Assembly: GCA_947179485.1 (NCBI GenBank)
Contig: OX359245.1
Span: 75,007,067 to 75,071,066, forward strand
Direction: 5' to 3'
DNA from: Allacma fusca
Lineage: Eukaryota; Arthropoda; Collembola; Symphypleona; Sminthuridae
Length of the DNA: 64,000 nt
A program made the translations under genes and the position numbers. Below the pieces are notes generated by a model that was not told where the DNA came from, did not search any database, and saw nothing but the letters and a program-made list of their open reading frames with translations. Within the stretch, counting starts at the first letter, position 1, and every line of letters starts with the position of its first letter. This document shows positions 30,865 through 62,494 of the stretch, one piece after another.

Positions 30865-31004
30865 ATCTGTTGACATTGACAAATATACGGTGGGATTTAC
30901 GTGTTGTACTAAAGCACAACTTTAATATGTAGCAATATTATCCATGTTTGTATAAATGTTTTGATTGTGTGTAACAGTTTCAGTATTATTGTAATGTATG
31001 TAGT

Positions 31005-33697: not shown

Positions 33698-34279
33698 TGT
33701 TATGTACGGTATTACCCGGATATTGATGTTGCGTGGGTAATAGACAATGTAGCCTAGGTTCGGGTGTTCCATCCCCTGAATTCCTGGAATCCGATGTTGT
33801 TGGAAACGCATGAATAAATGGAACTATTAAATTCTGTGTGTAGTCCGTTTTATTAACTTTTGGCCAATTTATTGTTCCTAAACTGATACAATTTACACTG
33901 AACAATTAACATTTAACACAAATAGAATTTGAAGTCTGAATCTCTTCTTCTCATGAAATCTCCCGATTTCATGTCGCCCCGCTGGCTACCTGTAGAGATC
34001 CATCCCGGAGGGAATGGACTCTAGGTGCGACTTCTCTTGATGTTGCTTGCTTGAAGTCGAGATTAGAACTTGTACTTAATCTACGTGTCTTAATCTAAAT
34101 CTAATCTTATCCTATTCTTAGTTTATTGTTTATTAAATAATCTGAATCATTTCCTTTCCTTTACTTATGATTATGTTAGGTCAGCGTTTGGTCTCACGTA
34201 GCCTCTGCTTACGACCTTCTAAACTATTTGCTGACTTAGATTATGCTTATTCTACTCTATTTATAATATATCCGTAACA
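33698..34279 (-). repeat. 3' LTR of the giant element
   Basis: 582 bp, bounded by TGTTA and TAACA. It looks identical to 61913-62494 by eye over the whole length. In the element's sense it is the downstream LTR, directly preceded by a polypurine tract. Confidence 0.95.
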
Positions 34280-34289
34280 TTCCTCTTCT
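34280..34289 (-). other. Polypurine tract
   Basis: In the element's sense the bases AGAAGAGGAA stand directly before the TGTTACGG start of the 3' LTR. This is the expected place and composition for the plus-strand primer of LTR retroelements. Confidence 0.75.
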
Positions 34290-36944
34290 GGGTAATTGTC
34301 GACCTCGACAATGTCATCTATCGAAGTTCAAGTTCATATTATTTGTAATTATACTAATTCTATTTTTGTTACCATACTTTGTAGCTTAATCTTGGTCGTA
34401 ATAGTAATGGTTGGTCTTTGTAGCATGGTCGTAATGGTATTCATGGGCATTCTTATTGTTAAGGCATTGCATACAATTTTTATACATGTTCATCATCATA
34501 TGTGTATATACTTTTTGTAATGCTGTACAATATTTGGTGTTATTGTTTGTGTATTTTTCATAAAATCTTAGATATTAAAATCGTTGCACAACAAAATAGG
34601 TGTTACCTTTACAATTTGCATATACAATATTTACATGGAATACATTGTTATTTACATCATCATTTAACTTGATTTCTATTGTTATTTATCGTATCTAAGA
34701 TTAGAAACATCGTAGCAGAATTGAAAATTTTGTACACATGTTTTGAAAAGAATTTGTTTGTAAAACTGTCTTGACTGCTCTCCAAGATCAGCAAAGATTA
34801 CTTGAAGGCAGATATGAAACTATTGACTCTTGTTTCTATTCTCATTTGATTTCTAATTTTCTCTGATATTGAATACTAGTTGTTGAAACACTGTGACTAC
34901 TGTCAATTTCTGTTATTACTAGGGTAGTGGCCTAATGTATTGTTAAAGGTGTATTTAATTATTAAGCTTGTAAAATCCCGTGAGTTTCCTTGTAAAACAA
35001 TTTAACATGTCACAGACAAATCGTTGTGGGGAAATGTGTGATTATCCAATATCACTATCAACGGTTTGAAGTGACGGTCTTGAGCGCAGTAGTGTCGCTC
35101 TTAAACACAATTATTTGAAAAACCGACTCGGAAACCTCCTGAGGTCTCTACAGAAAGTTTGAAGAATCTTTTTATTTTCGCCTGTGAAATTTTTGAGTTG
35201 TTTTTCGGTGGCTAAATTAGGAATTATGTCCTTCTCATGCACAACTGTTGGCAATTTCACCAAATGTGAAAACATCGTGCTCCATGAAGTTCTGTAAGTG
35301 GTTCTTACTACTCCATAAGACATAAAATCATATTGTACCGTGAACTATTTCCTCAATTGAGATAGAAATGTATTTTGGCGATAATCATAAATATATATAT
35401 ATATACCTTGATCTGTAAAAAAATCTTATTTGATGAAATGTGTCAAATTTGTAAGTTAAATTTTCTGTTTAAAATTCCCTTCAGAATTTTGTTTTCTTAA
35501 TATAATTTTTGTCTTGGGAAACTATGGAATTTATCAGAGCTAATAAGACATTTGATCTTTTAAGATTTAAAACTGATCCTTTGTACTGGATAAACGAAGT
35601 GAATTTAATGATTCCGTAAACCTTTATTTTGTCATCTACGATGTGTGTTCACACAGATAGCATCCGTCTTAGACTTTCAACTCAAAATTGTAAAAAGATG
35701 TCAACACTGTTTGCAATGTGATTCTCGTTGCCTCTTGCACCTCTCGATTCACATTGGACTAGTTTACAACTAACAATCAAATATATCCATTACTGTAATT
35801 TTCTTACTTTTTATATTTTTTATTTAAAGTTCCTCCTACCTATTCGTGGTATATTTTTGTTTATTCTTCTGGTCCCTAGATCATTCATGTAGGCCCTTGG
35901 AATAGGTGAAGGTCCTTGTTCTCAAACGACATTAGGATCCTTCTGATCTGGGCACATTCATGTCAATAATTTTGACAAAATTTATTTTCTAACTATCATT
36001 TGAAATGCGATACAATTTGCAAGTAAATAATAAAAGAATTACACACAGAAATTCTTTTGGAAGAATCTATCCTTTGGACTTTTGTTTTACTTAATCTGTC
36101 TTTCTAGGTACCTAAGATATTAGCACGTCTAGCTAAATAGATTTTGTTAAACTGAAGCTAAGAGATAAACTGATCCTGATCGTAGAGAACTTGCTTATAC
36201 AGGGGTCTGATTTTTGCTGGAAATTTGGTATCCCGCTCATCCCAAGCGATGAGTAGGTTAGAAATTTAATTTTATCCTTCTCATATGGAGTTAAATGACC
36301 TAATAAGTCACAAGGCATCACAATCATCACTCATTGGCTGTTGAGTAAACAAGCCTCAAGAAATTATGATATTGCCTAAAATTTTTGTTAGAACTGAACC
36401 TTATCTTGAAACAATTTCATCTTGTTAACAAATAAATCTTTGTTTTCAAAACATAACCTGACTTGATAATGTTGATGTCTAATAAAAACCTAATCACTGG
36501 AATCAATGGGGTGAAAAGGAAATTGGAAAGAAAATGGATAATGAATCCATTGATTGGGTTAATGACTGTGGCGCTGATGCCATTGGGCCATGAAAGATAT
36601 ATTGATTTGAATCACATAATCTTTAGACTGTTTTTCCTTTTACTCCTATTGGAGATCTGCCTCTTTAACTAAGTGGAACTTTTCGTTCGTTATTTGAACT
36701 TTTATTATTTTCATTTCAGTTTTATATTTTTGTTGTATATGAACTTGATTTTCTGTGTTTTCTCTACCTAACCTTATTCTGCTTACAACTACTTATTCTA
36801 CTTATTACTTATCCTATTATTTTGCTAATACTATCTTACAATTAATAAATATTTTTAAATATTTTTCCATACAATTTTTATGGTTTTGCGTATTTTTCTT
36901 CGTTGTTTTCTTTCTTGCGTTGGTCCTTCCCGGTTGGGTCGGTG
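34290..36944 (-). other. 3' non-coding region of the giant element
   Basis: About 2.65 kb without a supportable frame on the element's sense strand. It is AT-rich, with an (AT)n tract near 35390. It lies between the membrane-protein frame and the polypurine tract. Opposite-strand frames such as 34296-34520 have AT-driven composition and are not credible genes. Confidence 0.6.
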
Positions 36945-37676
36945 TTATAGTTGTACGGTTGCTCTGGTTGTGTGTCGGCTGGCTTGTTGTTGTGTATTGG
37001 GCCTCACAATTCTGCATCCGACTAGCTGCTCTATAGAATTTTGGACTAATGCCTGCGTGTCTGCAACATTGTCTAATTCTCTCTCATTCGGTTTTTGTTG
37101 ATCTGATTTCTTTTTCTGCATTCGAATTCGGTACAGTATTACTGTGAATATAAATATCACTACTGTGGTAATACAACCGAATGAACTAATAATGACTACG
37201 GTATAATCCGTGTCTGAAGTTGGAACCTCATTGGATTTCCAATCAATTTCGTTGAATTGCTCCATCCATGGTGGTCTGCTATCCCTCAGCATCGTGGGCT
37301 GTTGGTTTTGTATGAATTGTTGTTGAGGTTGTAGTAAAGCCATTTGTTGGTTCCTTTCCATGATTCTCTGGGCTTCTACGTTCGGGTCGTTCGGGTCATA
37401 CTGCACTATGGCTAGTTTCCCGTCATCCTTGTGGTGTAGTATGTGTACTGTTGGGTCCTTTTGTGATAGCACTGATGCTGTGATAGCTCCGCTTCCGACG
37501 GTTATGGCTGGTACCATGTAATTTGCGAACCATTTTCCAACTTGAGTTCCTAGGGTTGCCATCAGTGGTCCTCCCCATGGTTCTGGACTTGGTTGTGCTA
37601 TCGGCCTGGTTTCGGAAACGTCCATTGCAATTAGAGTTATTGCAAGGCTCAAAAGAATATACCACTTGTATTCCAT
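36945..37676 (-). CDS. Small type I membrane protein of the giant element
   Basis: 243 codons from an ATG. The N-terminus, WYILLSLAITLIAMDV, is a good signal peptide. A short Q-rich outer part follows, then one membrane span (VVIISSFGCITTVVIFIFTV, near residue 165-185) and a basic cytoplasmic tail starting YRIRMQKKK. It is the last frame of the element, the position of env in retroviruses, but the outer part is only about 140 residues, too short for a typical fusion protein. I do not recognise a family. It is probably expressed from a spliced RNA, as env-position frames usually are. Confidence 0.65.
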   Translation of the reverse strand: MEYKWYILLSLAITLIAMDVSETRPIAQPSPEPWGGPLMATLGTQVGKWFANYMVPAITVGSGAITASVLSQKDPTVHILHHKDDGKLAIVQYDPNDPNVEAQRIMERNQQMALLQPQQQFIQNQQPTMLRDSRPPWMEQFNEIDWKSNEVPTSDTDYTVVIISSFGCITTVVIFIFTVILYRIRMQKKKSDQQKPNERELDNVADTQALVQNSIEQLVGCRIVRPNTQQQASRHTTRATVQL

Positions 37677-38242
37677 CCTTGGAAAATTTTGTATCTGTTT
37701 TTGGTTTCGTATTTCTGAGTGGTCTCAAGTGTTTGAGCTCTCTGTGGGTGTTGAGATTATAATGAGTACTCTGGTTTAAGAGTCTCTTATTTATATCAGT
37801 ATATTGTTTGTGTTTTCATCCTCCGGTTGCGAAAGAGAATTCTTTTCCTACTTCCAATGTTGTAATCCGTATGTCCCACTTCCGGTGACATAATCTTTTG
37901 TTAGTATTTCTGTCTTATGAACTCTATGAAATGTGTTAGTAAGTAAAATATTTTTGTTTTGTTTTCTATTTTGTATTTTATTTTTATTTGTTTTTCATTT
38001 CTAACTACTCTGTTATGGTGACCATTATGTAACATCCGCCGTAATCCCAATGGTTGATGCTACATAAGATCTTAAAAATGTTTTATCGTAGATCATCTCT
38101 TGCGAAATAATCTACACTTTACATTCCCTTCGGGAATTTCTTCCGTCATCAGGTAATTTGGCTTCTGCTTTCCCCGCTAGTTCTCCTTCTCTTCCTACCA
38201 TGACCTGGATGGAATGGTCAGGTTATTATCCTCTGTGACGTT

Positions 38243-41200
38243 TTAATCATCTTCCTCGGACGGCCCTCTGAGGGTGCCTGTCTCCTCCTCTCCTTCCGCT
38301 AGTGTTCGGAATGATATGACTGCGAATCTATTCTCGGATAAAATCTCCGGGTCCCATCTTGCCCGTTCCGATCTTTCCCATAATTGATCCATTAACCTTC
38401 TGTGCTCCACAGGGTTTGTTATGGAAAGATAGCTGGTTCTTTGTTGTGTTACTGGATCTCTCCTGAGTTCTTCCTGAATAAAATCATGTCCAAGGTCTCG
38501 AAAAATTATTTCAATTCCTGTCCGACCTCTGAGGGTTCGTATGAGATTTATTATGTCGGGTTCATCTGGTCTTCCATCAATGACAACTGATCGCCATTGG
38601 GGTGTTTGGAATCGATCTATAGCGCTTGGTACCATATGTATTGGTGTTATTCCTGGTCGTCTCTCGTTTCTTGGCGATAATTGATATGGTTTGTAACTTG
38701 GTCCATCTCCACGGTTGCTGATTTGCTCCCGAATCCTGTGAAAGTGTTCTCTTTGCCAGATTCGTATCGTGACAAGTTCGTTTAGGTCTCTGAAAGAACC
38801 TGTTTTCCGGGGTTGTCTTAGGGTGGCTACTCCTCCTTTTAGTTTTCTAGCGTATAGGGTAGTTGGCTTTTGGCCTTCCCCTGCTAGTTTCATTGCGAAT
38901 ATCCAGTCTTCCCATTGTCCTAGTTCTTCTTCTATGTCGTCTATTGGATTGGGTTGACTTCTGCCGCTCTGGTTCATCGCTCCAAATTGTCGCCACTCCT
39001 GAATTGCCTCGTCCTGATGATAAAGAGTTATGAGCCTTTCGGTCATACTCGCAAATTCTTGAAAACTTAGCATGTGTATTGGTATACTTGCTAGTTGTTG
39101 TAAAGCTTTCTCTCCACGTCCGGTGATGGCATCTCCTCTCAGTAGGAAACTATTTATCCACATTTCTTGCTCTCGCCAGGTTGGCTGAGTTCCTATGTCA
39201 AACCACATCTGAGTAATCAATCTGCGTAGCTCGGTTCCTGTTAGCCCTTGCATTACTCCTTGATGTTCCCGACATGTTAGGTATGTTGGTACTTGGTGAT
39301 TGTCAATACCTCTTTGACCATTGAACAGTGTTGTCCAAAGTCTCGGTATCATTTCCCCTGGTGAGATGTTCATGTCTCCTGCCATCGTTTCCAGACGGGT
39401 GTTTTCCATTGGTACGTTTCTTCGACTTTGCCCGTATAGGATGAGCAGGTCTCGCTCCCTTGGGTCTAGTCTGCGATAATCTGTGGGATGGTCCATTGCA
39501 TCATACAGCAATGCCCTTCTTTCCCGGATTAATTCTCCGTGATTGTTGTAGTCTATTCCTGCCTGGTGTTCGGCGTATTCTATGTTTGATTCATGAGCAT
39601 CTGTTCTGGGTTCGCTTAAGGTGCTAAGCGCCCTTCGTAACTGCTCGAGTCGTAGTTGAGGTGGTTGGGTAGGTTGTTGGTGGATGTCAAGTCTCTCGAT
39701 AAATGTCTCCCTGTACATTCTGTTGAGCCATCTCACTAGATTTTGCTCTGGACTGTTGGTTGACCGGTGTGAAATATTATATGTTGGAAATCTCTCTGGG
39801 TCGATGGTAGATTTCTGGTAACAATGAGGACACATGGTGGATCTTTCCCTGGTGTCCATGTTGTTGCTGAAGTAGTTCGTTCTCCTGGAGTAGTGCACTT
39901 CTGTCTGGCTGTGGCGTTCATCTCCGGATATATCTTCCATCACTTGGTCCGGAAATCTTGGCGGTGGTGAGTGGTCCAATGGGTCATTGGCCCTTTCCAC
40001 CATCTTTTTCACTTGAAGTCGTACCGGATCCAGTTGGCTGTATAACTGTGTCTTGTTTGGGTTGGTAAAGATGACTATTTCCGCATCCTCATCTTCCCAA
40101 CTTGGTGCTACCATCCATCCACGGACTCCTATGTAAAATGATACGTGAGCTAAATCAACGAATCTTACATCAGGTGAGTCGGGTTGTGCTAGTGGGTCTT
40201 CCAGTGCTGGAGCTGGTGTGTTTTCCTGGCGTTCTTCCTTGAACTCCACCTTTCGTTGACGTTGTCTAGCTCGTCTGGACTTCAGTTTGTCTTCAATGGG
40301 TGGTATAGGTTGTCCCGTTATCGTGGATGGTCCGGGTGACGGTGACCTTGATCCTCGTCTGTCCCTTGTATCGTTAAATATTACAGTCCTAATGGGTGAG
40401 TATACTCTAACCCTGGGTCGCTCAATTTCTGGCTCTGGACCTCGTCGTCGTCCTCTATACTGGAATGTACAGTTTGGAGCGTTGTCTCTTCCATACAACC
40501 TGTCCAACTCGGGTCTACTCCTTCGGATGTATTGTACCGGAATATCCTTTTGTCTTTGCCAAGCTTCATGTGCTGCTAACTTGGTCTTTGGTCGTATGGG
40601 TGGCTTATGGCCATGTTTGAGTGGGCAGTATTCGCATCTGGTCTGCACCCACTTACTGTCTGTCTCATTGTCTGACGAACTATCTACCTGATGTTCCAAT
40701 GGTGGCTTTTCTTCGTCGTCTAAGACTTCTTCCTTGATTACGTTCAATGATGTTCCCGCTCCTTCTTCTTGAGCTTCCATAGCTTGTTCCGTTGGCACAG
40801 CCGGTTCCTCTTCTGAGGCCAAAACCGGTCCTTCTGCTCCCTCTGTCCTTCGTGGGTGGCTTCTTCCGGGGTCACTTTTCCGTATTGGATCCTGGTTCCC
40901 TCCGAAGTCCATTCCGACGGACGTGCCAATATAGATTACCATTCTGAGGGTAAATCGTACAAGCTGTTGAATAATCCCTGTAGGTCTTCCTGACGATGAG
41001 TGAGCCTCCTCTTCCTCGATTCGTGCCAGCATAAGCTGTAGCTGTTGTTTTAAGAATTGTTTACTATAACTGACGGGTGACCATGCGTTGGTCGGTCCTA
41101 CGAATGCATCTCGCCTCTGCCGTTCTCTGGCTGTTCGTTCCGACGTTCGCTGGAAGAGTGGGTGGGTTTGTGAGACGTTGGCGTGTGCCTTTGTCTCCCA

Positions 41201-44200
41201 TCCCTTGAGTTCTTCTTCTTCGAGATGGTCAACTCCATTGTATACGTGTGGTATGAGCAAAACTATCGTCCAGTTTGCTTCTGTGATTGTCGTTGCTAGT
41301 GCGAAGTGTACAACTTCACCTATTGCAATTTCCTCGGTGGGGTGAACATAGTCTTCCCCTTTTGTGATACTGTGAGGGTTGTTTTGCATCTGGCGTTGTA
41401 GGTTATTTATCTGGTCTTTTGCCAAGATACTTCGCCTGGTGCGTTTATGTATGGTTTTGAGTCCCAAAATTTGGATGACTTTGTCAATGAATTTCCCGTA
41501 TTGTATTTCATATTCCTTCCAAATTTCGTATTTGGTTTGTAATGGTAACTGGATTGGTTTTGTTATTAAGTCCATTGCGACTGATTGTAAAGTTCTGGTC
41601 GTTAGATGGTAACCGTCACGTATTGCTTGTGACATTAACCAAATAGCTTGCGGTAATTTCCGTTGGTCTCGAATCTTTTGTCGTCGTTCCTCTTCCTCCG
41701 AAGTGGGTTCAGGAGCATGTCGTCGCACTCTCCCGTTTTCGGATTCTTCCTCTTCCACTTCCTTGCCTAAAGCTTGATTCCATACTTTGGCTACAGAAGT
41801 TTCGTTGAGGTAATGAGCATTCCTTTGGATATCATCTGGTAATGCTATTAAATTCGGAGATATTTCTGTTGCTGTTGGATCTTTCTTAAGAAAATCTTCT
41901 AGTTCTTTTTCCTCACTGGCGTTGACGGGCATTATCATCCAGATGGGTCGTTGGTCTGGTAGTTGGGACTCAATGAGTACCCAGTCCTGTGGTATTTTGA
42001 CTGTCTTGAGTGGTTTATTCCATCTCCTGACTGCGTCTAGGATTGAGCTGGTATAGACTCCTACTATGACCATTCCCGTGGTACACATGCCTACGGCTCC
42101 TGCTACTCCTCGTACTACTCCATTCTGCCAGAGTCGGTGCGCTGTAGCTGAACCGAAACTTTGGTATCGTACGGCTGAATTTCCGACCGGTGGGCATTCC
42201 CGTTGGCCGTAAGGGTCATAGTGTCCGATTTCCTCTGAGTCTTCCTTATTTTCAAAGTCTAGGCTGACATGGTCAAAGCCTCTTGGACTGGTTAGATTCT
42301 CGGTTTCCAATCGGGTCCACCACTGGTAGTGTGATGCCCGGGTTGTTGGATATGGTCCGTAGTGTCCCGTCAATTCCTTTCTCAAGGTTGATTGTCCTAC
42401 AGCAGATGTAATTAAACCGAACATTAATAAGAATGATAGCCAACTGTTACCGAGGTAAGGTATGGGTCCTCCTCGTCTTCCTCCTCCTCCACGTCCCATC
42501 TCCGGCGTGTGAGGTGGCGTTTGAATTGATGAGGTTGACTGTCTTGGTTCCTCGTCGTCACTGAGGATGACGGTTCCGTCCTGGGGTGAGTTGGCAAAAT
42601 CAGCCAATGAAAGCTGGTGGTGATTAACAATTTCCGTTGTATCTGAAGTTATTGATGATTCTCGATCTTTGGGTCTTCTCTTTGATCTGATCACCTCAAA
42701 ATCCTCTGAACTACTGCTCTGGTCGTTGTGTTGTTCGGCTATAGATAGCTCAGATGTTGCAACTTCGACGTTTTGTGCTGGTGAGGGTGGCATTTCCGTT
42801 GCCATTCCTGTTGAGCTTGCTGTTTCTGGACCATTTCGTTTTTCTTGAGCGAGCAAACGCTCTAGCTCTCCGGATGTGGCTGTTGACGTTGGAATGTTCG
42901 TTGGTTCAAAGTGTGCTGGAGGTAATTCTCTGGTTTGAAGGTCTATTTTTGACTCAGCGCATACCAAGTGAAAGTCGTTATCATTTCTCCACTTTATCCA
43001 TTCCTGGCGGTGGCGTGCTAATTCTTTCATTAATTCTTCCTTTTGCTTTTTCGCACTGTCTGCGTTGACATTTTGTCTGGCAAGGTTGCGGATGATTTCC
43101 CCGAGATCTTTTATTCGGTTTACCATCTCCTCGTGCTTCCCTGCTTTCCTGGAGTCTTCTCCGATTTTTATGGTGTTCGACTGCCATTTCGCCGGTGGTT
43201 GGGTTGGTGCTGTGCTCTGTCCGAATAGCTCTAAGATAGTCATCTGAGCCTCCTTCTTGACCTTCTTCTCCTTCTTTGCACGTTTCTTTGCATGATGTTC
43301 ACATTCCTGTTGTACCACTGGTCCACTATCGGTTGCAATTACTTGTCGTACCCTTTTACATCCTTTCCTACTACAGGTTTGGATGGGTACTGTCTCTTCC
43401 TCTTCTGAGTCTGAAGAAGATTCATTGGCGGTATCTCTGTCCGCTGTTGTAGCTGTGTCCGTGGCAGTTTCCTCGCTCCATAATGTCACAGCTACTGATG
43501 GTGGAGTCACTACAGGTACTTCCACTGGTCTCTCTCTTTGAGCGATGCAAACTGCACGCTGTGGCTTAGGTGGTTCACTATTGACCGGTATTGTTGGCGG
43601 TGGCATCTTTGTGACCGCTGTGTAGCTTAAAGCTGGAGCTGCTATGGGTGCTGTTAGTATTGACTCCCTCTCCATTCGGTCCTTATACTCTCTCGCTGAT
43701 GGCGATAGAAATGGCGAAGGTGGTGGGGTTGACTCTCTCCTGCTCCTTGACCGCGCTGGACTATCATAGCGGCTCCTTGACCTGTCGTCCTCCCGTCGCT
43801 TCTTCCTTTCCGATGACGACTCCGTCTCCCGCTTCCTGGTCCTGCTGTCCTTGGAGCTGTGTCTTTCCCTTGAACTTTCTCTTGAGCTTCTGTGGTGTCT
43901 GCTCGAACTTTCTCCAGTAGTGATGGCCCGCCCGCGGCCTCTCCCGGCTGGTACCATATGTGCCGAGTAGGCTGCGAATCTCGGAGGCTCCCTTCGTCGG
44001 TCCTCCAAGTTTCCTCGTCTCAGATCGGGTCCATAGTTGTCATCAATACGTCTGTTGATTCTATGGGTTACGTCCTCGACCTGTTCTTCATGTTGCGGTA
44101 ACCATTCACTGATGTCGGGGATGTTGACTCGGGTCACTCCACAAATAGGGTCGGCTCCCATCACTTTCCGAGATGAGCTTCGACTGGTCTTGCCTCGTTC

Positions 44201-44437: not shown

Positions 44438-44560
44438 CTGCTGCTCCGGAAAATTTATCGACCCGCAAAAGTGCGGTTCTCGTCGTAATATGCGGTAATC
44501 TAATGTTAACTCTCTAGGTTTCCTGAGAGCTCCAATTAGTACTGAATGGGTTACGATTTC

Positions 44561-45005
44561 TCATCCATCTCGTCCTTGGATGATAATCCTGTGGGGTAAC
44601 TTCCCGTCTACTCTGAGAACAACTTCCAGTCGTCCCGTATCTGAGTTTGGTAAAATTTTTGCTTGTGGTATTTCCACTTCAGTTTGACTCACGTATTGGG
44701 TCCAATAACGTGGTCGATCGTCGTCGTCCCTGTCGACGGCGGGTAGGGCGTCTTGGCGTGGAGTCTCGTTGGTTCGAGACCCGGATGCACGTGACCCTCT
44801 GTTCTCTGACATCTGGTTGAAGATAAAATACTTTGCAGTAATCTGATTTAATGATTGTGTACGTACCTACGTATCGGATTCTCCTTCGACCTTGTCGTAT
44901 GAGGTAACTAATGAGATTTATACGGTCTCCAATCCTGAGGTCAATCTCGCTTTGACCAAAACTAACACAGTTTGGTATTGTTGTTAGGTATCTGGTGGTA
45001 CTCAT
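44561..45005 (-). CDS. Two small overlapping frames between integrase and the 2064-codon frame
   Basis: Two ATG-started frames in different phases: 45005-44679 (108 codons, MSTTRYLTTIPNCVSF, ending in an Arg-rich tract) and 44812-44561 (83 codons, MSENRGSRASG, with VEIPQAKILPN). Both are short and unrecognised. They could be exons of a spliced accessory RNA or leader frames. I list them because they fill the gap between two long frames and start close to the end of the integrase frame. Confidence 0.4.
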
Positions 45006-51712: not shown

Positions 51713-52208
51713 ATTCTATGTCGGCCTTTTTCTCTCCGACGTAGAGATGAGTGTCCCTAGTCATTGGAACTGTTTGAAATCGGTCACTCCGTATTTCATT
51801 ATTCTTGTAATCCAACGTTATTCCATAACGTGATAAAAGATCTTCACCTATAATCATTCGTGGTTCTAGTGTTTCCATCACTAGACCTTTGAATAAAAGT
51901 TTTTCACCTTCAATCATCATTGTGAATTTGGTAAGGCAAATTGGTTTTACCAATTCCGCATTTGCTACTGCTACACGCAGGGCGCTTGGAACTTCTTTTA
52001 TTTCCGCACATCTTGGTACTAAGTTTCTTTGGATACAGGATCTTGTTGCTCCTGAATCTAGTAAAGCTGGTATCATCATACTGCATATTTGCACTTGTAA
52101 AGTTGATTTGTTGCCGTTTGATAAACGACATGGGTTGAGATCAATAATTTCTAATTCTTCGTCGTCTTTTGACTGACTTTCTACTCTAGTTGCTAAAATT
52201 GCATTCAT
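51684..52208 (-). CDS. Aspartic protease frame of the giant element
   Basis: 174 codons. ALLDSGATRSCIQ carries the catalytic D-S/T-G motif, and MIIGEDLLSRYGI matches the ILGxDxL motif near the C-terminus of retroviral-type proteases. It lies between Gag and RT, as in Ty3/gypsy elements, and overlaps the start of the RT frame by about 28 bp. It would cleave the Gag and Pol polyproteins. Confidence 0.85.
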   Translation of the reverse strand: MNAILATRVESQSKDDEELEIIDLNPCRLSNGNKSTLQVQICSMMIPALLDSGATRSCIQRNLVPRCAEIKEVPSALRVAVANAELVKPICLTKFTMMIEGEKLLFKGLVMETLEPRMIIGEDLLSRYGITLDYKNNEIRSDRFQTVPMTRDTHLYVGEKKADIEFVRSIFFIS

Positions 52209-52228
52209 TCTTTCTTGGATATCTTCAG

Positions 52229-55200
52229 TTACTGGGGGTGCGTCCCCCTCTGTGAGTTTCCCGACGGATATGGGCTAGATTGTCTTTTGTGTGGGCAATT
52301 TCTCCTCAGGTGGCCCATCTCTCCACATCCGAAACACTTTAGGTCGGTTTGAGTGGATTCTAGCGCCAATTGTCCCGGTATCGGTTGTGACTGCTCCTGG
52401 CGGTCTGGTTGATTTCTCCAAGAGTTGTTTCTGTCATTGCTTTGGCTGTTCCGGTCCCTGGAGTTAGTTCTACTCCTGTTGTTATTGTTATTGTACTGTT
52501 GGGGTCGCTGACCTCCCTGGTTATTGTTGGGCTGATAACCCTGGTTCTGGTAACCTTGTGGGTTGGCCTGAATTTGCTGCATGCCAGGGTTGGCGTACCC
52601 TGCATTTTGTCCTGGACCGTATCCTTGTTGCGGTACGTATCCTTGAGATGGTCCATACCCTTGAGTGGGTGTATAACCTTGAAATGGTGCATAACCCTGT
52701 TGTGGTGGGTATCCTTGATTCGGATTAAACCCTTGAGGTGGCAAAAAGCCTTGAGTTTGATTAAATCCTTGGCTGTTATAGCCGTTGTAGGATTGGTTGT
52801 ATCCTTGGTTCATCTGTTGGTCATTCCATTGACGATTTCCCTGGTTATTAGGGTTGTTGTTGTAGTATTGTCGGTTCGGACTTTGTCTGGGTCCGAAATT
52901 TTGGTTCCGCTGCGGGTAACCTTGGTTGTTGGAGCTGTTGCCATCATTTCTGTACTGAGGCCTACTCCTGTCTTGATTATTGTAGAATCTCTCAGGTGTT
53001 GGAGATCTACCTCGGTTTCCATAATTCCTTCGGTCATCGTAACCTTGGTTGTTACGTCCCCTGTCCGGGTAGTTGTTATTGTTGCCGTAACCTGGGCTGG
53101 AATTTCGTGAGTTATTGAAGTTTCCCTGACCTGGACTCCGTCCTCGTTGGTCATTGGGTCTATTTTCGGGTCTACGATAGTCCTGTTGTTCTCTCACTGC
53201 AGCTATTTTCACTACAGTTGTTTCCGCTGGAACTGGTTTCATCCCGGAGGTTAATTTCTCCAACATTTCTTGGACTTTGGCAAATCTTGTCTCAATAGAT
53301 TCCGCGCCGTCCGTCTTTCGGTCTTCATCATACTGCTTGATTCCTTCTATGAAATCTGCTACAGTCCCTGCTGTCCATCCTCGGCAGAAAACTATGTATT
53401 CGGATGTTAAACCTGCGCGTAAGAGTCTGATTTTCTCCAGTTCGGGCATAAATCTGTCGACTCTATTGATTAGTGCTAATTTCGCATCTATGTATGCGCA
53501 TGGATCTTCATCCGTATTCATCTTTCGCTTTTCCATTAGTGTACGTATCATTTGGTCGGTGATACTGTACCTTATTAAAAATTCCTCCCTGAATTCGTCC
53601 CAGTTAATGGTGTCGTAGGGTAGTTCCTCATGTAATCTTCGTTCGGCAATCCAATTTCTGATCCAATCCCTGACGGGTGGGTCAAAGATAATCTGTACGT
53701 ATTGCATCCTGGTTATGATGGTATCTCCTCCGAACCTGTTGGTCTGAAGTTCGGCTGTTGCGAAGGCTGTCTCTGGGTCATCTACACCCGGTTTGAATTC
53801 TACCTTGGGAAACATGAGGGCGGTCATGTCGTCGTCCAGATGTCTCCTTGGAATTATTCGTACTTGTTCTTGGTCTGCAACTTCCTCAATACGTATTCCC
53901 TGATTGCGATTGAGTGGTACGTATGGGTTGATGATGTTAACGTTGACCTGGTTGAAGAAATTATTTCTGTTCACAATCTGTCTATTCCTCCAGTTGTCGA
54001 AGGCCTCGAAGTCGTGAGGGTTACTTGAGTTGCTACTACTGGAGCTGGATGATGAGCTACTTCCTCCGGAACTTCCGGGGTCACTCCTTGCTCTCTGTCT
54101 GCCTCCGATGTGTCTACCTCCTCTTGAGCCTCCTCGACCTGGATTTGACCTTGATTGTGATGGTCGCTGGTTGTGGGAGTTGTTGTTATTAGCTCCTCTC
54201 GGCTGGTTTCTTCTCCCTGATCCACTTGGTCCTGGGCCTGGTGGTCTGGGTTGGTTATTTCCAATTTGACGGCGTGCTCGTAAGGGTTTACGTCTTTTTC
54301 TGACTTGAGTGAGTACTACTTGAGTTTCCGGACTAAGATCTCGGAGTTGGATTCTTGGGAAGAAGTGAGTTTCTCCGGTATTATCCACAAATCGGACTTC
54401 CTCTTGTATCTCTTCGTCTCTTTCGATTGCTCTGAACGCTGCGTCGTAAGCGTCGTCTATAGAAATTCTTATAGTAAATTGACCTGGTACTTCTGGAATA
54501 ATGAAGTCCTCTTCGTCAACTCCAATAAAAATGTGGTCTGTCTCTTCACTAGACTGTGCACTGTTATGCTGACCACTCTCACGTCTTGGAGTGTCTCTCT
54601 CTACTACCTGCTCTTCTTCTTCCTCGCTGGACGTGTCACTCAAGATTTCTACGTTAGGGTCGTGAAGTAATCTATTCAATGCCTCTTGATGGTCGTGTTC
54701 GTTCTCGATTTCTTCCAAGAAGCCTGGTGGTACCCTTTGTCTGCGAACGCCGTTCGGTAGACTGATGTGTCGATGGTAAAGTCTGAAATTGGGTGCGATG
54801 TAACTGGAGATCTGCCCTGGATCTAAAGATCTTCGGGTGATTATATTCCAGAAGGTAAATATCGGGTGTTCACTCAGAACAATTTCTTCGTGTTCAGCTC
54901 TTGTGGCTGCAAATGCTTCAAAGTTTGAATCCCTTGCTGGTCTGAACCTTCGTTGTATGATACCGTCCCTTCTGTTATAGTAGATCAGGCGTCTCACTTG
55001 ACCTGTCCAAGTTGCTTCGTTTTCTACCCCCTGGTTTCTGAATCTGTCTTGTTGTCGTGCGATCTTAGAGTATTGTCTTACTGTTATCCTGCTTGGTACT
55101 AACTCGTCTTCGGTTGCTTCGTTCTCGCTGGTGTATACTCTGCCACTTGGTCCTGTCCAAATGTTAACTCCGTATTGTAAGTCGTCAAGCCAACTGACTT

Positions 55201-58200
55201 TACCTTGACTTGTGGTTGGAGTTGTTGTTACTCGAGATGGTCCTGCTACTGCTGAATTTGGTCTGACGGGGACAGCTGGAGCTGTCGGTGTCGTTGGTCG
55301 GTTTGCTGACCTGGTTATGAACCTTCCGGTTGGTCTAGCTGGTACTGCAAAAGTCGTTGCTGCACGTGTCGTGGATGCAGGTGTTGCTGTCCGTGACCTT
55401 AAGGTGTCACCTTGGACGTACGACTCGTTGCTTCTAGATGTTTGTTCTGAAGGTGGTGGTTGTGGTGCTGTTACAAGCTCTCCACCTTCTATGATGGTCC
55501 TATCGTTGTTGGTTGCTCGTTGCAGGATGTCTCGACCTCGTAAACTGTGGCGGTGTATACCTGTGCGTCCTGTCGGTAGGCTGTTATATAACGAGCCTCT
55601 CGGTGATTGATAGATGGTAAATCTGTCTTGGGGTCTAAATGCCTGATAGTAAGTACCTGTGTCAGAATTTCTGATGGTATTTGCGATAGTTAATGACGGA
55701 TTCTGTTCCCTTATTTGTCTCCCTACTTGCACCAATGTTCTTAAAGCTGTTTCACTAACGTCAAGTGGCGGTGCTCGCAACGCGTGCACGGGTGGGTGTA
55801 CGTAGATTCGACCTCCCGGTGACTGGTAAACTCGGTGTACCTGTTGTTCGTTACCGTTTACCTGGGTGGAATCTGTGTTGACGTACAACTTTGTTGTTGC
55901 TAAATCCCTCTTAACGTTAGCCTGCGATGTATTACCAATTTGGGTGGTCTCGACCTCCTCGGTTGGTGTTTCCAATTCGTCTTGGGTAGGTGGTGACCTA
56001 AATTGCAGGTTAGGTTGAGTTGGTCGATTTCTCGGCGTATTTTCCGTTGAAACCTGTCTGTTTTGACTGGTTGGTGAGATGTGTACTGGGTTAATCTGCT
56101 GTGTTATCTCGTGAGAGTTGCTGTGTCGGCTTGACTGCCTTCTATCGCCTGTTGCAGGTGTTGAGCGACAGGAATTACTGGACCTCGGGGTCACTCTAGG
56201 TTGTGTCGTAGAGCTCCCTGCTGGTGTCTGATTACCTGTCTGGACTGTAGGTGATGTAGTGGGTGCTCTTGGGCTACCTTTCTGAGTGGCTGTCTCGCAA
56301 CGGCTGTTGCTTGGTCTCTCGCGTGTCGTACTCCCTTGTGGACTGGTCCTGGGATTTAAGTTGCTGTTTTCCTCAGCACTATTTACCCTGTAGTGTCTTC
56401 TCACCGATTTCTGGAAAAGTTGTGACCTAGGTGATGAGTAATCTACCTGGTTACTGTCCGTCGCCTGATTACTTGGTCTGGGATGGTCACGATCGGAGTT
56501 GCTCGACTTCCGATTTCGAGGGGTTGTTAAACCTGTTTGAAGTGTCGCTGAGGCTATTGCCTGGGCTATAGCCTTGTTGATTGAGCTTGAGCTGGTATTC
56601 AAGCTTTCCGGTGAAATCCTTCGTGACGTAACGGGTTGTACTGTAGGTTCGCCTGAGATGGTCCTTAGCGTAGATCTAGATGCTGGTTCTAATAAACCCG
56701 TAACCGGATTCCGTGTTACTGGTGGGTTTCTTTGGTCGTACCTAAGGTACCTGCTAATGATGTCGTCAGCACTGGAGTCGATTACACTTTGTTGGGTGGT
56801 CCCGTTGTTATTTGAATCTTGTTCTGGACCTTGCCTACTCTCGTCGCTGACTCGTCTTTCTTGTCGTGGTTGACCAAATTCTAGATTTTCGCTAAGTCTT
56901 CCGGATTGTATCACGGTTGTGTACCTAGGTGTATCGTTGAAGAAAATCTGGCTATCCTGGTGTGCCTGGTGACTTCTCAACGACAATACCCGGTGCTCTA
57001 AAAGGTTTCGGATGACGTCTGTGGGGATGAAAATGTTATCCCTGACGTTCCGACCGTACTCAAAGGCACGTGTACGTAACACTTCCCTTTCTTCCCTATT
57101 CGGATCTCTGTTGTTGTCCCGTCTGTGGGTGACTTCAGCTAATCTAAGGAAAAAATGTGTCCACTGGACTGTACCTGTATAAAGATTTTGAGCTAACCTG
57201 TGATACACCTCTATCAGTTGTCCTTCCAATCCTCGAACTACCAGAAAATTTTCCACTGAGTTCCGTTGGAAGCCTGCGGTGGTCACTAATTGTTGAAACG
57301 AACCTGCTGGTACTATCACACCTGTACCTGTCACTAATTGTACGAAATTTTCTTCCACTCTTTGGATGTTGTCTTGCCCTTCTCTGATCGGTGGTAACTG
57401 ATCCTCGACTGGGCCTTCCTGTTCTGTAGACTCAGACACCCGGCTGAGTGTCCTTTGAAAGCCTACGTCTCCTCTATTGGAAAATCCTGGAGATGGTCTT
57501 GATAGAAACCTGTCTCGTACAAGTTGTTGTATGTCTGGTTGTTGAGAAACTGTAGTATTCGACTGTGTAGCCTTACGGTGGTCACTGATGCTTAAATTTG
57601 ATAACTGCTGATTTAATTGAGTAGTGACCTGGTCACGATCACTCCCTATACTGTTATTAGTACGTGGCAATCCTGTTGGTGAGTCACCTTGTTCGCTCTG
57701 TTCAGTTGACTCGTCCGATTGAGTTATTGCTAAATTGTCCCTAAATGATGAGTGCGTACTGAGATTTCCTGGCTGGATAATCTCTGGTGTACTTGTTGCT
57801 ATAGCAATTGGTCTATTGGAATCTTCCAACTCATCCAATTCCGTTGAGCTTTGCTGATTAACCTGTTGTTCTGTTTGTCCAGTAGCTTTGCTGCACATTC
57901 CTTGGCTTTGTACATCCTGTTGGGGTTGTATGCTCGTATCTTGAGGAATGTCTCCGTTGCCAACTAGGTTTGTCAGGTTGCTGACAACCACATTGTTGGG
58001 TGATTCATTGGTCACGTCTTCCATCTCACTTTCTGGAGTTGCGAATCCTTGCTCGCCCTCCTCTACGCTTGTGTGATTGCTTCCAGGATCCGTGATGATT
58101 TCAAATGATGACGTGGCAGCGCTACTAGTTGGTCTTTCCTCAGGTTGATTGAATTGCGACAGGATTTCCTTGATTGTGGGGTCAGCGTCGTGACTGACAA

Positions 58201-58795
58201 AAACCATATCTCCTCTAGCATTTAGCATGAATTCACCTGTGGCCTCAACCTCCTGGGTTTGTTGGACCTGTTGGCCCTCCAGGTTGGTTACCTCGAGGTC
58301 GCGTAATTCTCGTTGCATAGCTAGTCTATGGAGATTCTGTCCTTGCACCACCTTTGTCTTTGAAAACTTTGGTGTTTGTGCTGTCGATACTGTTGGTGTT
58401 CGTTTAGGACTGGTTGCCGTACCTGTTACAGGTGTTGACACCGTGTCCAAGAACACATCCATGCTTTCATCATTATTGTCAGGATTATCTCCGTGCCCCA
58501 TGGCCTGCGAGCCCGATGGACTTTGTGCAGATAATGCCAGGGTTGTACTGCCGGATTCTTCCATGACTGTAGATGTCGAAGCTGAAGACGTTGAAGAGAG
58601 GTCTACACCTGCCGTTGCTGTATTAGCTTTGGCTTTTGCGGCTTTTCTCTCCTCTTTCCTACGGGCGAGGATTTCCTCCAAGCCTGTTTCATTCTGTGGC
58701 ACTGGGCCTGCCGATCGCGTAGTCCTTCGAGATGGTATTGAAGGTGCAGGTGGTGGTTCCCTTCTTGATGGATGTTGGTTCTTTTCGGGTTCCAT
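52229..58795 (-). CDS. Gag-type frame of the giant element, 2188 codons
   Basis: Starts with ATG at 58795 and ends just before the protease frame. The first 1500 or so residues are low-complexity and hydrophilic, without a family I recognise. A capsid-like region follows at about 1640-1870: RDWIRNWIAERRLHEELPYD, FREEFLIRY, KMNTDEDPCAYIDAKLALI and LRAGLTSEYIVF resemble retrotransposon Gag capsids. Near the C-terminus are repeats of QGYxPx (about 52600-52800), N-rich tracts, and a CCHC knuckle, CFGCGEMGHLRRNCPH. Typical gypsy Gags are 300-600 residues, so this one is several times longer. Confidence 0.85.
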   Translation of the reverse strand: MEPEKNQHPSRREPPPAPSIPSRRTTRSAGPVPQNETGLEEILARRKEERKAAKAKANTATAGVDLSSTSSASTSTVMEESGSTTLALSAQSPSGSQAMGHGDNPDNNDESMDVFLDTVSTPVTGTATSPKRTPTVSTAQTPKFSKTKVVQGQNLHRLAMQRELRDLEVTNLEGQQVQQTQEVEATGEFMLNARGDMVFVSHDADPTIKEILSQFNQPEERPTSSAATSSFEIITDPGSNHTSVEEGEQGFATPESEMEDVTNESPNNVVVSNLTNLVGNGDIPQDTSIQPQQDVQSQGMCSKATGQTEQQVNQQSSTELDELEDSNRPIAIATSTPEIIQPGNLSTHSSFRDNLAITQSDESTEQSEQGDSPTGLPRTNNSIGSDRDQVTTQLNQQLSNLSISDHRKATQSNTTVSQQPDIQQLVRDRFLSRPSPGFSNRGDVGFQRTLSRVSESTEQEGPVEDQLPPIREGQDNIQRVEENFVQLVTGTGVIVPAGSFQQLVTTAGFQRNSVENFLVVRGLEGQLIEVYHRLAQNLYTGTVQWTHFFLRLAEVTHRRDNNRDPNREEREVLRTRAFEYGRNVRDNIFIPTDVIRNLLEHRVLSLRSHQAHQDSQIFFNDTPRYTTVIQSGRLSENLEFGQPRQERRVSDESRQGPEQDSNNNGTTQQSVIDSSADDIISRYLRYDQRNPPVTRNPVTGLLEPASRSTLRTISGEPTVQPVTSRRISPESLNTSSSSINKAIAQAIASATLQTGLTTPRNRKSSNSDRDHPRPSNQATDSNQVDYSSPRSQLFQKSVRRHYRVNSAEENSNLNPRTSPQGSTTRERPSNSRCETATQKGSPRAPTTSPTVQTGNQTPAGSSTTQPRVTPRSSNSCRSTPATGDRRQSSRHSNSHEITQQINPVHISPTSQNRQVSTENTPRNRPTQPNLQFRSPPTQDELETPTEEVETTQIGNTSQANVKRDLATTKLYVNTDSTQVNGNEQQVHRVYQSPGGRIYVHPPVHALRAPPLDVSETALRTLVQVGRQIREQNPSLTIANTIRNSDTGTYYQAFRPQDRFTIYQSPRGSLYNSLPTGRTGIHRHSLRGRDILQRATNNDRTIIEGGELVTAPQPPPSEQTSRSNESYVQGDTLRSRTATPASTTRAATTFAVPARPTGRFITRSANRPTTPTAPAVPVRPNSAVAGPSRVTTTPTTSQGKVSWLDDLQYGVNIWTGPSGRVYTSENEATEDELVPSRITVRQYSKIARQQDRFRNQGVENEATWTGQVRRLIYYNRRDGIIQRRFRPARDSNFEAFAATRAEHEEIVLSEHPIFTFWNIITRRSLDPGQISSYIAPNFRLYHRHISLPNGVRRQRVPPGFLEEIENEHDHQEALNRLLHDPNVEILSDTSSEEEEEQVVERDTPRRESGQHNSAQSSEETDHIFIGVDEEDFIIPEVPGQFTIRISIDDAYDAAFRAIERDEEIQEEVRFVDNTGETHFFPRIQLRDLSPETQVVLTQVRKRRKPLRARRQIGNNQPRPPGPGPSGSGRRNQPRGANNNNSHNQRPSQSRSNPGRGGSRGGRHIGGRQRARSDPGSSGGSSSSSSSSSSNSSNPHDFEAFDNWRNRQIVNRNNFFNQVNVNIINPYVPLNRNQGIRIEEVADQEQVRIIPRRHLDDDMTALMFPKVEFKPGVDDPETAFATAELQTNRFGGDTIITRMQYVQIIFDPPVRDWIRNWIAERRLHEELPYDTINWDEFREEFLIRYSITDQMIRTLMEKRKMNTDEDPCAYIDAKLALINRVDRFMPELEKIRLLRAGLTSEYIVFCRGWTAGTVADFIEGIKQYDEDRKTDGAESIETRFAKVQEMLEKLTSGMKPVPAETTVVKIAAVREQQDYRRPENRPNDQRGRSPGQGNFNNSRNSSPGYGNNNNYPDRGRNNQGYDDRRNYGNRGRSPTPERFYNNQDRSRPQYRNDGNSSNNQGYPQRNQNFGPRQSPNRQYYNNNPNNQGNRQWNDQQMNQGYNQSYNGYNSQGFNQTQGFLPPQGFNPNQGYPPQQGYAPFQGYTPTQGYGPSQGYVPQQGYGPGQNAGYANPGMQQIQANPQGYQNQGYQPNNNQGGQRPQQYNNNNNRSRTNSRDRNSQSNDRNNSWRNQPDRQEQSQPIPGQLALESTQTDLKCFGCGEMGHLRRNCPHKRQSSPYPSGNSQRGTHPQ

Positions 58796-61700
58796 ACCTG
58801 TAAACGTCCTAACTTTTTCTGGATGGGCTGAAAAATGCTAAGGCGTTTCGTAGAGTTTGGTTTTATGAATTTGTTTGACGGTTGTGAGAGTTCTTTTGTC
58901 AATTCCAAACCTGAAAACCTTCTTAAAACTTATGCCAAATTTTAACTTAAACCGTTTCCTAAAATTTTGCCTTGTATGCCTATGCTTATGTAACCCTAAT
59001 TGTTAAACTTAATTTGCCAATTGGTGATGATAACTTGGAGAGGGAAAAAAAAAATTTTTTGTGCTTATGACCTAAGTGTTCAATCCCTGAACATCCCTAA
59101 CCTTAGCTGTGAATCGTCTTAAAACTTAGTCTCTATAATTTTAACGTTTCTAATGAGTACCTCCTGGTGTTACCACCTGAATTTCCTTAAAACCTAAACT
59201 TTCTAATCTTAACTTTCATTAGCTTATCCTCCTTAAGCTTATTCCTGTCTTACAACCTAGCTGTTTTTAAACTTAATTCCCTTAAACTTAAACTCCCTAA
59301 AACTTATTCCCCTTAAAACTTAATGTCCTTTAAACTTAACCTTCTTTAAACTTAGTCTCCTTAATCCTATCCTCCTTAAAACTTAAGCTCTTAAACTTGC
59401 TCACCTTAAAACTTAATCCTCTTAAACTTACTTATTTGCAATGGCTAGTTGCGTCTAACTCCTTAAATTATCAGTCTTTTTGTCAATCAACACTCCTCAC
59501 GTTCGGGCCGGTGTTGCCTAAATTCCCTAAATACTCCTGTAATGATTCCCAGAATTAATAAGGACTGTATTCCTCGCTACTAAATACCCTTCTGTCCCAA
59601 AGGATATGTTTCGCGTCCTAATTCGTACCTAAGAACTTCCTTGAACCGATCCTACCATCAGCAAGGCTTGTATCTGTTGTAGACAGCAAAAACTGAAAGC
59701 ACCAGAATTTACTGAATTCCTATCCCTATAACCAACTCTCAAAAGCCATGAGCCTGTGGTTTCTTATGCCAAATCTCTCTACTCTAGCAAAATCCTTCGA
59801 GAATGGCTAATCTTATGATGCACTCAAAACCATGAGTCATCTATGGAAGAAGTAATAAATAAGAAAGTCCCTATGTATGGCCATAGCTGGAAACCGCATA
59901 CATAGATTTTAAAGTGAACCTCCGTGCTTTGGAATGTCCCCTGTTATCCTATCCACTAAACCATGGACCTCCTTACTAGTAATAGTCATTGCTGTTACCT
60001 ATCCGCTAGCTCGGGCACATTACAAACATATACCTATATCGGTGCGTCAATCATAGCCTCTCCGATTACCTCTAGTAGGTCACAGGCTTATCGGTACTTT
60101 TGTCGGCACTCCATCCGATCACCTCCGTGCTTGGAATGACTCGAACCCTACTAAACCATAAGGTCCCTCATAATCTTCCTAGCCTCTCGGATCCTACGTA
60201 TACTAAAACTTATACACAACAATGATTCCGCTCACATTTCGGCCCTTGAATCCCTAAAACTACGTAGATGAGAATTTTCTTATATGTATGCTTATATACT
60301 ATGCCAATGTGTCCACGCTCAATGTACCTCGGCCCTTTGGACTAAATTTTGTACAAACCTTAATTAAACTGTCCTAATCACCCCGGCGCTCATATTCGGC
60401 CCTTCCGAACAAATTTTGTTTACCTTACATACTATAATCTTTAGATGGTCTGATCTACCTATGCTCTCTACTTGAGCTATATAGGTTTTGATTTGCAAAA
60501 TGACTAACTGAAATCTGATATGCTCCGTGCTCACATTCGGCCTTCCGGATTGACTTTGAAATCCTAATATTTGCCAAAACCATGACAAATTATTTCCTAA
60601 TTACCCAGCGCACAAAACGGCATTTCTGGTAGAAATGGAAAGATGGAAGAAGAAAAGATTTTTTGTGAAAAGTTTATGATAGATCCTATTGTTACCCGTG
60701 TAAACCTACACATCAGGTAAAGAAAGTAATTTTCAGCGAAAGAGTTTTGATTGGGTTTTGCCACCTAGCCATGGGGCTCTTAATTACGTAATTTGGAGAT
60801 AAAGACTTTAAAGGCATTTGCGCTCAGTAACGGCCCTTCAAATGTACTTATACTAGAAGGAGAAAGATGTAGAGAAAGAAGAGAGTGAAAGATTATTTTT
60901 GAGTTATTTACTGAAAAGATAGATCGTATTTTGCTTTAAACTGAGCTTGGAAAGTGAATTTTGAGAGTCTTGTATTAGTAAAAAAAGATCCTAATTAAAT
61001 GAAAGATTTTAATTGTGTTTTGGGTTCCTATCCCCTAGCCTGGGGTTTCCCAAAACTTTGAAAAGTAATTTGAAGAGTTAAAGAATTTCAACGCTCAAAA
61101 CGGCCTTTTTGAAATTAAGAACTTAAAACTTACGAAGAGAAAGATTACTATTATACTGCGCACAGAAACGGCCCTTCAGCCGGAATAGTTCCCTTTACAA
61201 TACGAACACTGTTTATGCCTCCGCTCACAACGGCACTTAAGGCGTCTAAAAAGATAGAAGAAGACTTATGTTACTGGAAGAAGCTAATTTTGGTGAAAAT
61301 TTTTATGCACACACACCTACTATGTACTCTGAAAACCACAAAATACATATACATATATGCGCAATTTTCTAATTTAAACATATGATTTGTATCTAAACTC
61401 TGGTTAATTACTCCTGAATATTAGCTACGCGTCGTAACTACATGACAAAATTAATATGCTCCTAATCATGAAATTCATGAACCTTAAAGAAAATTTTGTA
61501 TTACCTTATTGGACGTCCTCTTCCCCTAATTTTCCGGTTGGAAAGAGTCCCAATTTCACTGGTCACTTAAAATAATATTTCCGGCCGTAAAAATAGTTCT
61601 TTTTATAGTGCCGCACTAGGACTTCTGAACTGTTATTTGAATCCGCGCGTGATGATAATGGCCAATTTTCTTTCTTGAGGTAACATTGTTGCATGTTATG

Positions 61701-61912
61701 ACTGCCTTTCACGAGAAGTTTCGGGTGGCCCTGGAGAGAAATGAAGCATTTTCTCCTTGTCGAGCCCCATACTTCCATCCCATGAATTTTGAAAACTACG
61801 ACTTTACTTGCTACAAAGTTTAGTCTTTGTTTCAGGGTCATCCGCAGGTCCCCGACCTACGGATCCTCCGGGTCCTTACCAAATAAAACCCGAAGGCCTG
61901 GCAGAAACATCA
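58796..61912 (-). other. Leader of the giant element with two repeated word families
   Basis: 3.1 kb between the 5' LTR and Gag without a convincing long frame. About 59190-59450 is an array of roughly a dozen words close to TAAGTTTTAAG (sense), about 20 nt apart. About 59490-61245 holds at least nine copies of a word with the pattern GAAGGGCCG, 3-6 bases, TGAGCG (sense). Some copies form a small hairpin, for example TTCGGAAGGGCCGAA near 60395-60410. I see no clear tRNA-type primer binding site directly beside the LTR; the nearest TGG-starting stretch is about 31 nt in. The leader may hold packaging or translation signals. Confidence 0.6.
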
Positions 61913-62494
61913 TGTTATGTACGGTATTACCCGGATATTGATGTTGCGTGGGTAATAGACAATGTAGCCTAGGTTCGGGTGTTCCATCCCCTGAATTCCT
62001 GGAATCCGATGTTGTTGGAAACGCATGAATAAATGGAACTATTAAATTCTGTGTGTAGTCCGTTTTATTAACTTTTGGCCAATTTATTGTTCCTAAACTG
62101 ATACAATTTACACTGAACAATTAACATTTAACACAAATAGAATTTGAAGTCTGAATCTCTTCTTCTCATGAAATCTCCCGATTTCATGTCGCCCCGCTGG
62201 CTACCTGTAGAGATCCATCCCGGAGGGAATGGACTCTAGGTGCGACTTCTCTTGATGTTGCTTGCTTGAAGTCGAGATTAGAACTTGTACTTAATCTACG
62301 TGTCTTAATCTAAATCTAATCTTATCCTATTCTTAGTTTATTGTTTATTAAATAATCTGAATCATTTCCTTTCCTTTACTTATGATTATGTTAGGTCAGC
62401 GTTTGGTCTCACGTAGCCTCTGCTTACGACCTTCTAAACTATTTGCTGACTTAGATTATGCTTATTCTACTCTATTTATAATATATCCGTAACA
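61913..62494 (-). repeat. 5' LTR of the giant element
   Basis: 582 bp, TGTTA to TAACA, apparently identical to 33698-34279. In the element's sense, TATAAATAG (62480-62472) lies only 14 nt from the LTR start, so U3 would be very short if this is the promoter. Two AATAAA words follow at 62349-62344 and 62342-62337. Confidence 0.95.

Follow-up and report, generated by a model that had tools for sequence, protein, structure and literature searches.

A 64-kb stretch of the genome of the springtail Allacma fusca (contig OX359245.1; 64,000 nucleotides, referred to in its whole length as the window) contains two long terminal repeats (LTRs) whose outer ends lie 28,797 bp apart. The locus raises the question of whether so long a unit is one retroelement and, if so, what fills it. 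We conclude with high confidence that the unit, at positions 33698-62494 on the minus strand, belongs to a recently active family of giant Ty3/gypsy-type LTR retroelements of A. fusca that carries a second set of genes under selection. An initial annotation had described it as an apparently whole gypsy-type retrotransposon; much of its size is made up of genes and extensions that this description did not include.

Extent and copies of the element

The LTRs are 582 bp each, 100% identical, with TG...CA ends, and ATAT flanks the element on both sides (target duplication at 62495-62498, second copy at 33694-33697). The 5' LTR (61913-62494, minus strand; TGTTAC...ATAACA) contains TATAAA at LTR position 15 and four occurrences of AATAAA. 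The 3' LTR (33698-34279, minus strand) has the same sequence, and purine-rich AGAAGAGGAA lies immediately upstream of it. The interior between the LTRs (34280-61912) is 27,633 bp long. It contains short tandem repeats, and a self-comparison of the window (blastn, word 20, E value 1e-10) found no second LTR pair or other long repeat within it. Coordinates and self-comparison thus confirm the LTR pair, the ATAT duplication and the single 28,797-bp element of the initial annotation, and the LTR pair proved identical across all 582 bp.

The assembly (392,743,791 bases, 91 contigs) was searched with the LTR, and the best 40 of 282 candidates were scored; all counts for the family rest on these. Of these, 38 combine into 19 pairs, one of which is the window's; the remaining two lack a listed partner. 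Seventeen of the 19 pairs (the window copy and 16 of the 18 others) span 28.6-28.9 kb, and they lie on five large contigs. The 16 other pairs of this length rule out a chance pairing of LTRs and, with the lack of an inner LTR pair, refute a nested insertion. With one copy alone, a chimeric assembly or a stack of nested insertions could still have been argued. Given the 17 pairs of like length, the matching target duplications in 18 of 19 pairs, the lack of an inner LTR pair, and the derivation of the assembly from HiFi reads with a quality value (QV) of 58.7, we regard that explanation as next to impossible. The read type and quality value are from the genome report (PMC10427803), which also gives paternal genome elimination as proposed for A. 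fusca.

The four bases flanking the element agree in 17 of the 18 other pairs (15 ATAT, one ATAC and one GTAT). The pair lacking a matching duplication (G000:C1:3376825-3405528) has LTRs that agree over a 577-bp run, and could have arisen by recombination between insertions. Two copies are shorter (G000:C12:55188626-55212511, ~23.9 kb, and G000:C5:51834410-51854872, ~20.5 kb), each with two LTRs of the same sequence flanked by an ATAT duplication. These may be internally deleted copies that moved in trans, or may have suffered deletions after insertion.

Gag, Pol and the additional frames

The coding signal forms one minus-strand block from 58795 to ~36945, with a gap of ~0.6 kb. Pfam families occur on this strand in the order protease, reverse transcriptase (RT), RNase H, integrase zinc finger, integrase core and p58_C. 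The match at the integrase C-terminus (PF22938 Integrase_p58_C, E value 1.5e-7) is to what we take to be a GPY/F-type module. The closest relative of solved structure is Ty3 Gag-Pol (E value 2.7e-75). By domain order, integrase module and RT, the element is of the Ty3/gypsy kind, as the initial annotation had it, and its anatomy lends good support to LTR retrotransposition with RTAY sites as the predicted integration targets.

Gag (52229-58795, minus strand) is 2,188 amino acids (aa) long, and this length is kept, gap-free, in 4/4 copies. The Pfam evidence for gag is weaker than that for pol, with a zinc knuckle (E value 0.00037) and a weak Retrotrans_gag-like stretch (E value 0.1) toward the C end, preceded by an N-terminal extension of ~1,600 aa. 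The ratio of nonsynonymous to synonymous differences (pN/pS, four copies) is 0.13 overall; it lies at 0.08-0.23 across the N-terminal 1,600 codons and at 0.02-0.06 in the remainder. The protease (RVP; 51684-52208, minus strand) stands in the -1 frame relative to gag in all four copies read, the window copy included, and we therefore infer a -1 shift. RT and RNase H, an insert of ~650 aa and the integrase zinc finger follow (47828-51712, minus strand), and then the integrase core and p58_C with a tail of ~600 aa (45012-47831, minus strand). In eight copies, the ratio of nonsynonymous to synonymous substitution rates (dN/dS) is 0.01-0.05 across the cores of RT, RNase H and integrase, whereas the ~650-aa insert has values of 0.14-0.43 and the ~600-aa integrase tail values of 0.39-1.11. 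A protein search with Pol gave 304 matches, with coverage of the query of at most 45% among the 120 listed. In an RT tree of 120 rows (the query and 119 of the 120 listed matches), the query fell inside no starred set. Relatives of RT-Pol, the integrase and the two frames described below as ORF-G and ORF-M were not found in a search of viral contigs.

In the window copy, the pol frame shifts at two points, once from protease to RT and once within the zinc finger of integrase, so that the RT frame is broken at both ends, and there is one in-frame stop near the start of ORF-G. Pro-Pol is a single open frame in all eight other copies (6.8 kb read). Conserved recoding at the protease/RT junction, the zinc finger and ORF-G was considered and is rejected because the frames are uninterrupted at these sites in the other copies read. 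The window copy is whole in structure yet damaged. The initial annotation's "apparently whole" element and complete Gag-Pol thus stand for structure and domain order but not for the coding frames, with pol broken twice and one stop in ORF-G.

Behind pol lie two further open reading frames (ORFs). ORF-G (38243-44812, minus strand) encodes 2,189 aa from the first ATG in open copies. In 16/16 other copies the open stretch is exactly 2,207 codons long, with dN 0.0109, dS 0.0998 and a ratio of 0.11 (16 copies, 120 pairs; 0.05-0.22 along the frame). We found no match for ORF-G in the Protein Data Bank, in Pfam or in a search of 5.8 billion proteins. That search scored 7,976 candidates sharing most words and of 0.55-1.75x the query length, so shorter relatives would be missed; it was run for ORF-G, with gag, ORF-M and the small ORFs outside its scope. 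One weak PHROGs match of no assigned function (E value 0.0089, 24 residues) was judged to be due to chance. Two stretches of ORF-G folded without alignment gave mean predicted local distance difference test (pLDDT) scores of 34.8 and 37.4.

ORF-M (36945-37676, minus strand) encodes 243 aa, with a start that by eye looks like a signal sequence, a single strong transmembrane stretch and a short tail. Its length is 243 aa in 4/16 and 248 aa in 12/16 other copies, and its dN/dS is 0.22 (16 copies). In Pfam, ORF-M has weak matches to membrane-segment families only, all below the cut-off, and no envelope (Env) family was found.

The lack of a known Pfam domain in ORF-G might suggest that the element is an ordinary gypsy element bloated by captured host sequence, the extra frames being filler with no role. 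The exact conservation of ORF-G length with a dN/dS of 0.11 in 16 copies, and a codon signal running from gag to ORF-G, make this very improbable. The large size of the element is under selection.

Six small ORFs (sORFs) were also identified on the minus strand, over and behind the integrase tail. sORF1 (46193-46405, 70 aa), sORF2 (45947-46189, 80 aa), sORF3 (45677-45847, 56 aa) and sORF4 (45398-45643, 81 aa) stand in tandem in one frame alternative to that of integrase, with lengths constant in 9/9 copies, the window copy included. Their own-frame dN/dS values (nine copies) are 0.03, 0.06, 0.21 and 0.12, respectively, and those of the integrase frame over the same stretches are 2.68, 1.07, undefined (zero synonymous change) and 1.07. 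For the last 55 codons of sORF5 (45002-45265; 87 aa in the window), the ratio is 0.16 in its own frame versus 0.90 in the integrase frame (17 copies, in part of which the sORF5 start falls outside the compared stretch). The sORF5 stop overlaps the start of sORF6 (ATGA), an arrangement that would fit stop-start reinitiation. sORF6 (44679-45005, 108 aa) has the same length in 15/16 other copies and lacks its start in one of the 16; its dN/dS is 0.09 over the 59 codons upstream of the ORF-G start (17 copies). A crude heptad score was reached by few of 300 shuffles for sORF1 (4), sORF3 (0), sORF4 (1) and sORF5 (0), and was unremarkable for sORF2 (70/300) and sORF6 (102/300).

The sORFs over the integrase tail are short and have no evident route of translation, and it could be argued that they are spurious, their signal coming from the integrase frame. 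We compiled a control list of ATG ORFs of at least 40 aa with length kept in at least 3/4 of copies (window copy left out). In it, 5 of the 20 antisense ORFs also fall below 0.3, which shows that a low ratio by itself need not reflect a gene; we attribute these low antisense values to phase over a conserved frame. On the sense strand, however, only sORF1-4, sORF6 and ORF-M are below 0.3. The other seven alternative frames, of which the pol stretch contains three and the ORF-G/ORF-M stretch four, give either values above 1 (1.28 for the one over ORF-M) or no defined ratio. In addition, variable columns at codon positions 1, 2 and 3 number 5, 6 and 29 in sORF1-4 (nine copies), whereas the gap that separates sORF2 from sORF3 has 5, 4 and 2. 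An origin of the signal in the integrase frame is thus improbable.

The remainder of the interior lacks a coding signal. The putative primer-binding site (61895-61912, minus strand) adjoins the 5' LTR and reads TGATGTTTCTGCCAGG in the window copy and TGGTGTTTCTGCCAGG in two of 17 other copies displayed; TGRTGTTTCTGCCAGG behind the LTR resembles the end of a tRNA-Val. Self-priming was considered and rejected, with two 7-base matches only. The leader (58796-61912, minus strand; 3.1 kb) has one ATG frame, of 92 aa, which was rejected as coding: it is cut or absent in 3/3 other copies over the first 1.5 kb compared. A motif, GGCCG-(variable spacer)-GAGCG, is dispersed over 60229-61234. In the form GCCG-N(2-11)-GAGCG it occurs six times in the window, always in the leader and in the sense direction, against 0.5 expected. 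It is found at matching places in four copies (the window copy and three others, first 1.5 kb), with the spacer varying at some, and may be a packaging or protein-binding site. A degenerate tandem repeat, TTTAAACTTAATCTCC, with a 16-bp period lies at 59266-59430, shortly upstream of gag. The 3' region (34280-36944, minus strand) is 2.7 kb long.

Age, recombination and mode of spread

The LTRs are identical within all 18 fetched pairs besides the window's, and so in 19/19, in agreement with the very recent insertion proposed in the initial annotation. Zero differences over the 11,054 LTR positions summed across the 19 pairs give a 95% upper bound of 0.00027 on the mean distance. If 3e-9 changes per site per generation are assumed, this bound would correspond to under ~45,000 generations. 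The LTRs of different copies are 0.9-5.9% apart (median 3.3%; 153 pairs of 18 copies, the copy with no matching duplication omitted).

The copies recombine. Over 397 informative ORF-G sites in 16 copies, the frequency of four-gamete conflicts rises with distance from 0.20 (<50 bp) through 0.39 and 0.48 to 0.52 and 0.51 (the last two beyond 1 kb), and the nearest neighbour of a copy shifts along ORF-G. The recombination probably stems from template switching between two packaged RNAs; gene conversion between insertions is a possible alternative.

We propose that a transcript of ~28 kb would be translated into Gag and, via the -1 shift, Pro-Pol. The transcript would be copied by RT/RNase H and inserted by integrase at RTAY sites, mostly ATAT; template switching between co-packaged RNAs would produce recombination between copies. 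The additional selected set comprises the 1,600-aa Gag extension, the chain of small proteins over and after the integrase tail, ORF-G and the single-pass ORF-M. Because the extra genes lie behind pol and include a membrane protein, our guess is that their role may lie in building particles or in moving between cells, and not in regulating genes.

Several points weigh against the proposal of a recently active family that carries additional genes under selection. The window copy itself is damaged, and one of the 19 pairs lacks a matching target duplication. A canonical slippery heptamer was not recognised by eye in the gag/pro overlap. ORF-G has neither homology nor a confident fold in the two stretches modelled. 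The 40 scored candidates of 282 are the most query-like matches. This choice may have missed older insertions, undercounts old copies as well as solo LTRs, and biases the family toward apparent youth. Finally, no RNA, protein or particle was observed.

A further explanation is that the family is an infectious, retrovirus-like agent passing from cell to cell or animal to animal, whose young, mutually diverged and recombining copies entered the germ line recently out of a circulating population and whose ORF-G and ORF-M form a surface or entry module. In its favour are the identity of all 19 LTR pairs in copies whose LTRs nevertheless diverge from one another by up to 5.9% and whose ORF-G dS is ~0.10, the strong recombination among copies, and the transmembrane stretch of ORF-M. 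However, no Env or fusion-protein family was found for ORF-G or ORF-M in Pfam, nor for ORF-G in the protein search and the Protein Data Bank. ORF-G is also cysteine-poor (16 in 2,105) with two weak hydrophobic regions only, and its identification as an envelope is unsupported. The same picture would arise from selective removal of older insertions or from restricting the scoring to the 40 best matches. We therefore hold infection to be a tentative explanation, short of an even chance. About as doubtful is its fuller form, in which a giant retrovirus-like agent of arthropods would spread by means of a module for transmission or particles that has no kinship with known Env. That module would consist of ORF-G, the membrane protein and the chain of mostly coiled-coil small proteins, of which the five overprinted on the integrase tail may be expressed via stop-start reinitiation, and the copies would behave as a recombining population of which only very young insertions are seen.

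Surroundings and relation to known elements

The element sits among copies of a host gene family (9675-11093, 15833-17251, 29526-30866 and 62973-63419; DNA 74-88% alike), with perhaps a further copy at 1589-2939 (protein likeness, by eye). No Pfam family was found for them, and a protein search with one spliced reading gave no match. At 18998-22222, an integrase core (rve, E value 4.3e-8) lies beside frames with no Pfam match; we take this to be, perhaps, a decayed Maverick/Polinton-like element.

With Ty3/gypsy elements (Metaviridae), the element shares the protease-RT-RNase H-integrase order, TG...CA LTRs, a 4-bp duplication (18/19; expected 4-6 bp) and the p58_C module. The chromodomain (PF00385) at the integrase end of chromoviruses was not found in a Pfam scan of the element. 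Errantiviruses (gypsy, 17.6, 297 and kin) have arthropod hosts and ORFs in the env position, with ATAT-type duplications in 17.6 and 297, and the element resembles them in all three respects. Unlike them, it has no recognisable Env (a strongly diverged Env is possible), is several times longer and has overprinted small ORFs.

The size parallels drawn in the initial annotation, with Burro of planarians and Ogre of plants, agree with a review (PMC6431247). According to that text, Burro is a giant Gypsy element with an interior of up to 25 kb and a total above 30 kb; it has ankyrin, BIR, MATH and other recognisable domains, and env is in frame between gag and pol. Burro and the A. fusca element are both Gypsy-like, with a very large coding interior, many copies, a long Gag-containing polyprotein and extra ORFs. 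The A. fusca element differs in its 27.6-kb interior, its 582-bp LTRs and the placement of its additional genes, which overlap and follow the end of integrase. It has no recognisable additional domain, and ankyrin, BIR and MATH domains were not found in it with Pfam. Ogre is likewise a very large Ty3/gypsy element with an extra ORF. Its size, in the same source, comes largely from LTRs of 1.9-6.5 kb, with an interior of 11-13 kb, whereas the LTR here is 582 bp rather than kilobases and no coding signal was found before gag.

The MDG1/412 group offers a different comparison. According to PMC11952523, these are Env-less gypsy-type elements with small accessory ORFs before gag, including sORF2-like single-pass membrane proteins of 63-107 aa, and Env-free passage by the membrane protein is proposed. 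The A. fusca element is also gypsy-type and has no recognisable Env, with accessory ORFs including one for a single-pass membrane protein. In contrast, ORF-M is 243-248 aa long and follows pol, and no coding signal before gag was found in the leader, for which other copies were read over the first 1.5 kb. Our guess is that membrane-protein passage in MDG1 may be a functional parallel rather than a sign of kinship.

The initial annotation knew of no arthropod element this large. The host is a springtail, and no giant LTR element of an arthropod was found among the papers listed on giant LTR elements and on springtail and arthropod retroelements, which were covered mostly as titles and abstract openings and included few subscription papers. 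A literature search on overprinted gypsy genes also found nothing.

At 27.6 kb, this interior of a selected, recently mobile arthropod LTR retroelement exceeds the 25 kb quoted for Burro in PMC6431247. The finding bears on the limits discussed there, namely transcript length, RT processivity and packaging. With its many copies, the family provides a natural data set for the role of giant retroelement proteins, the origin of overprinted genes, and the combination of youth and diversity among copies.

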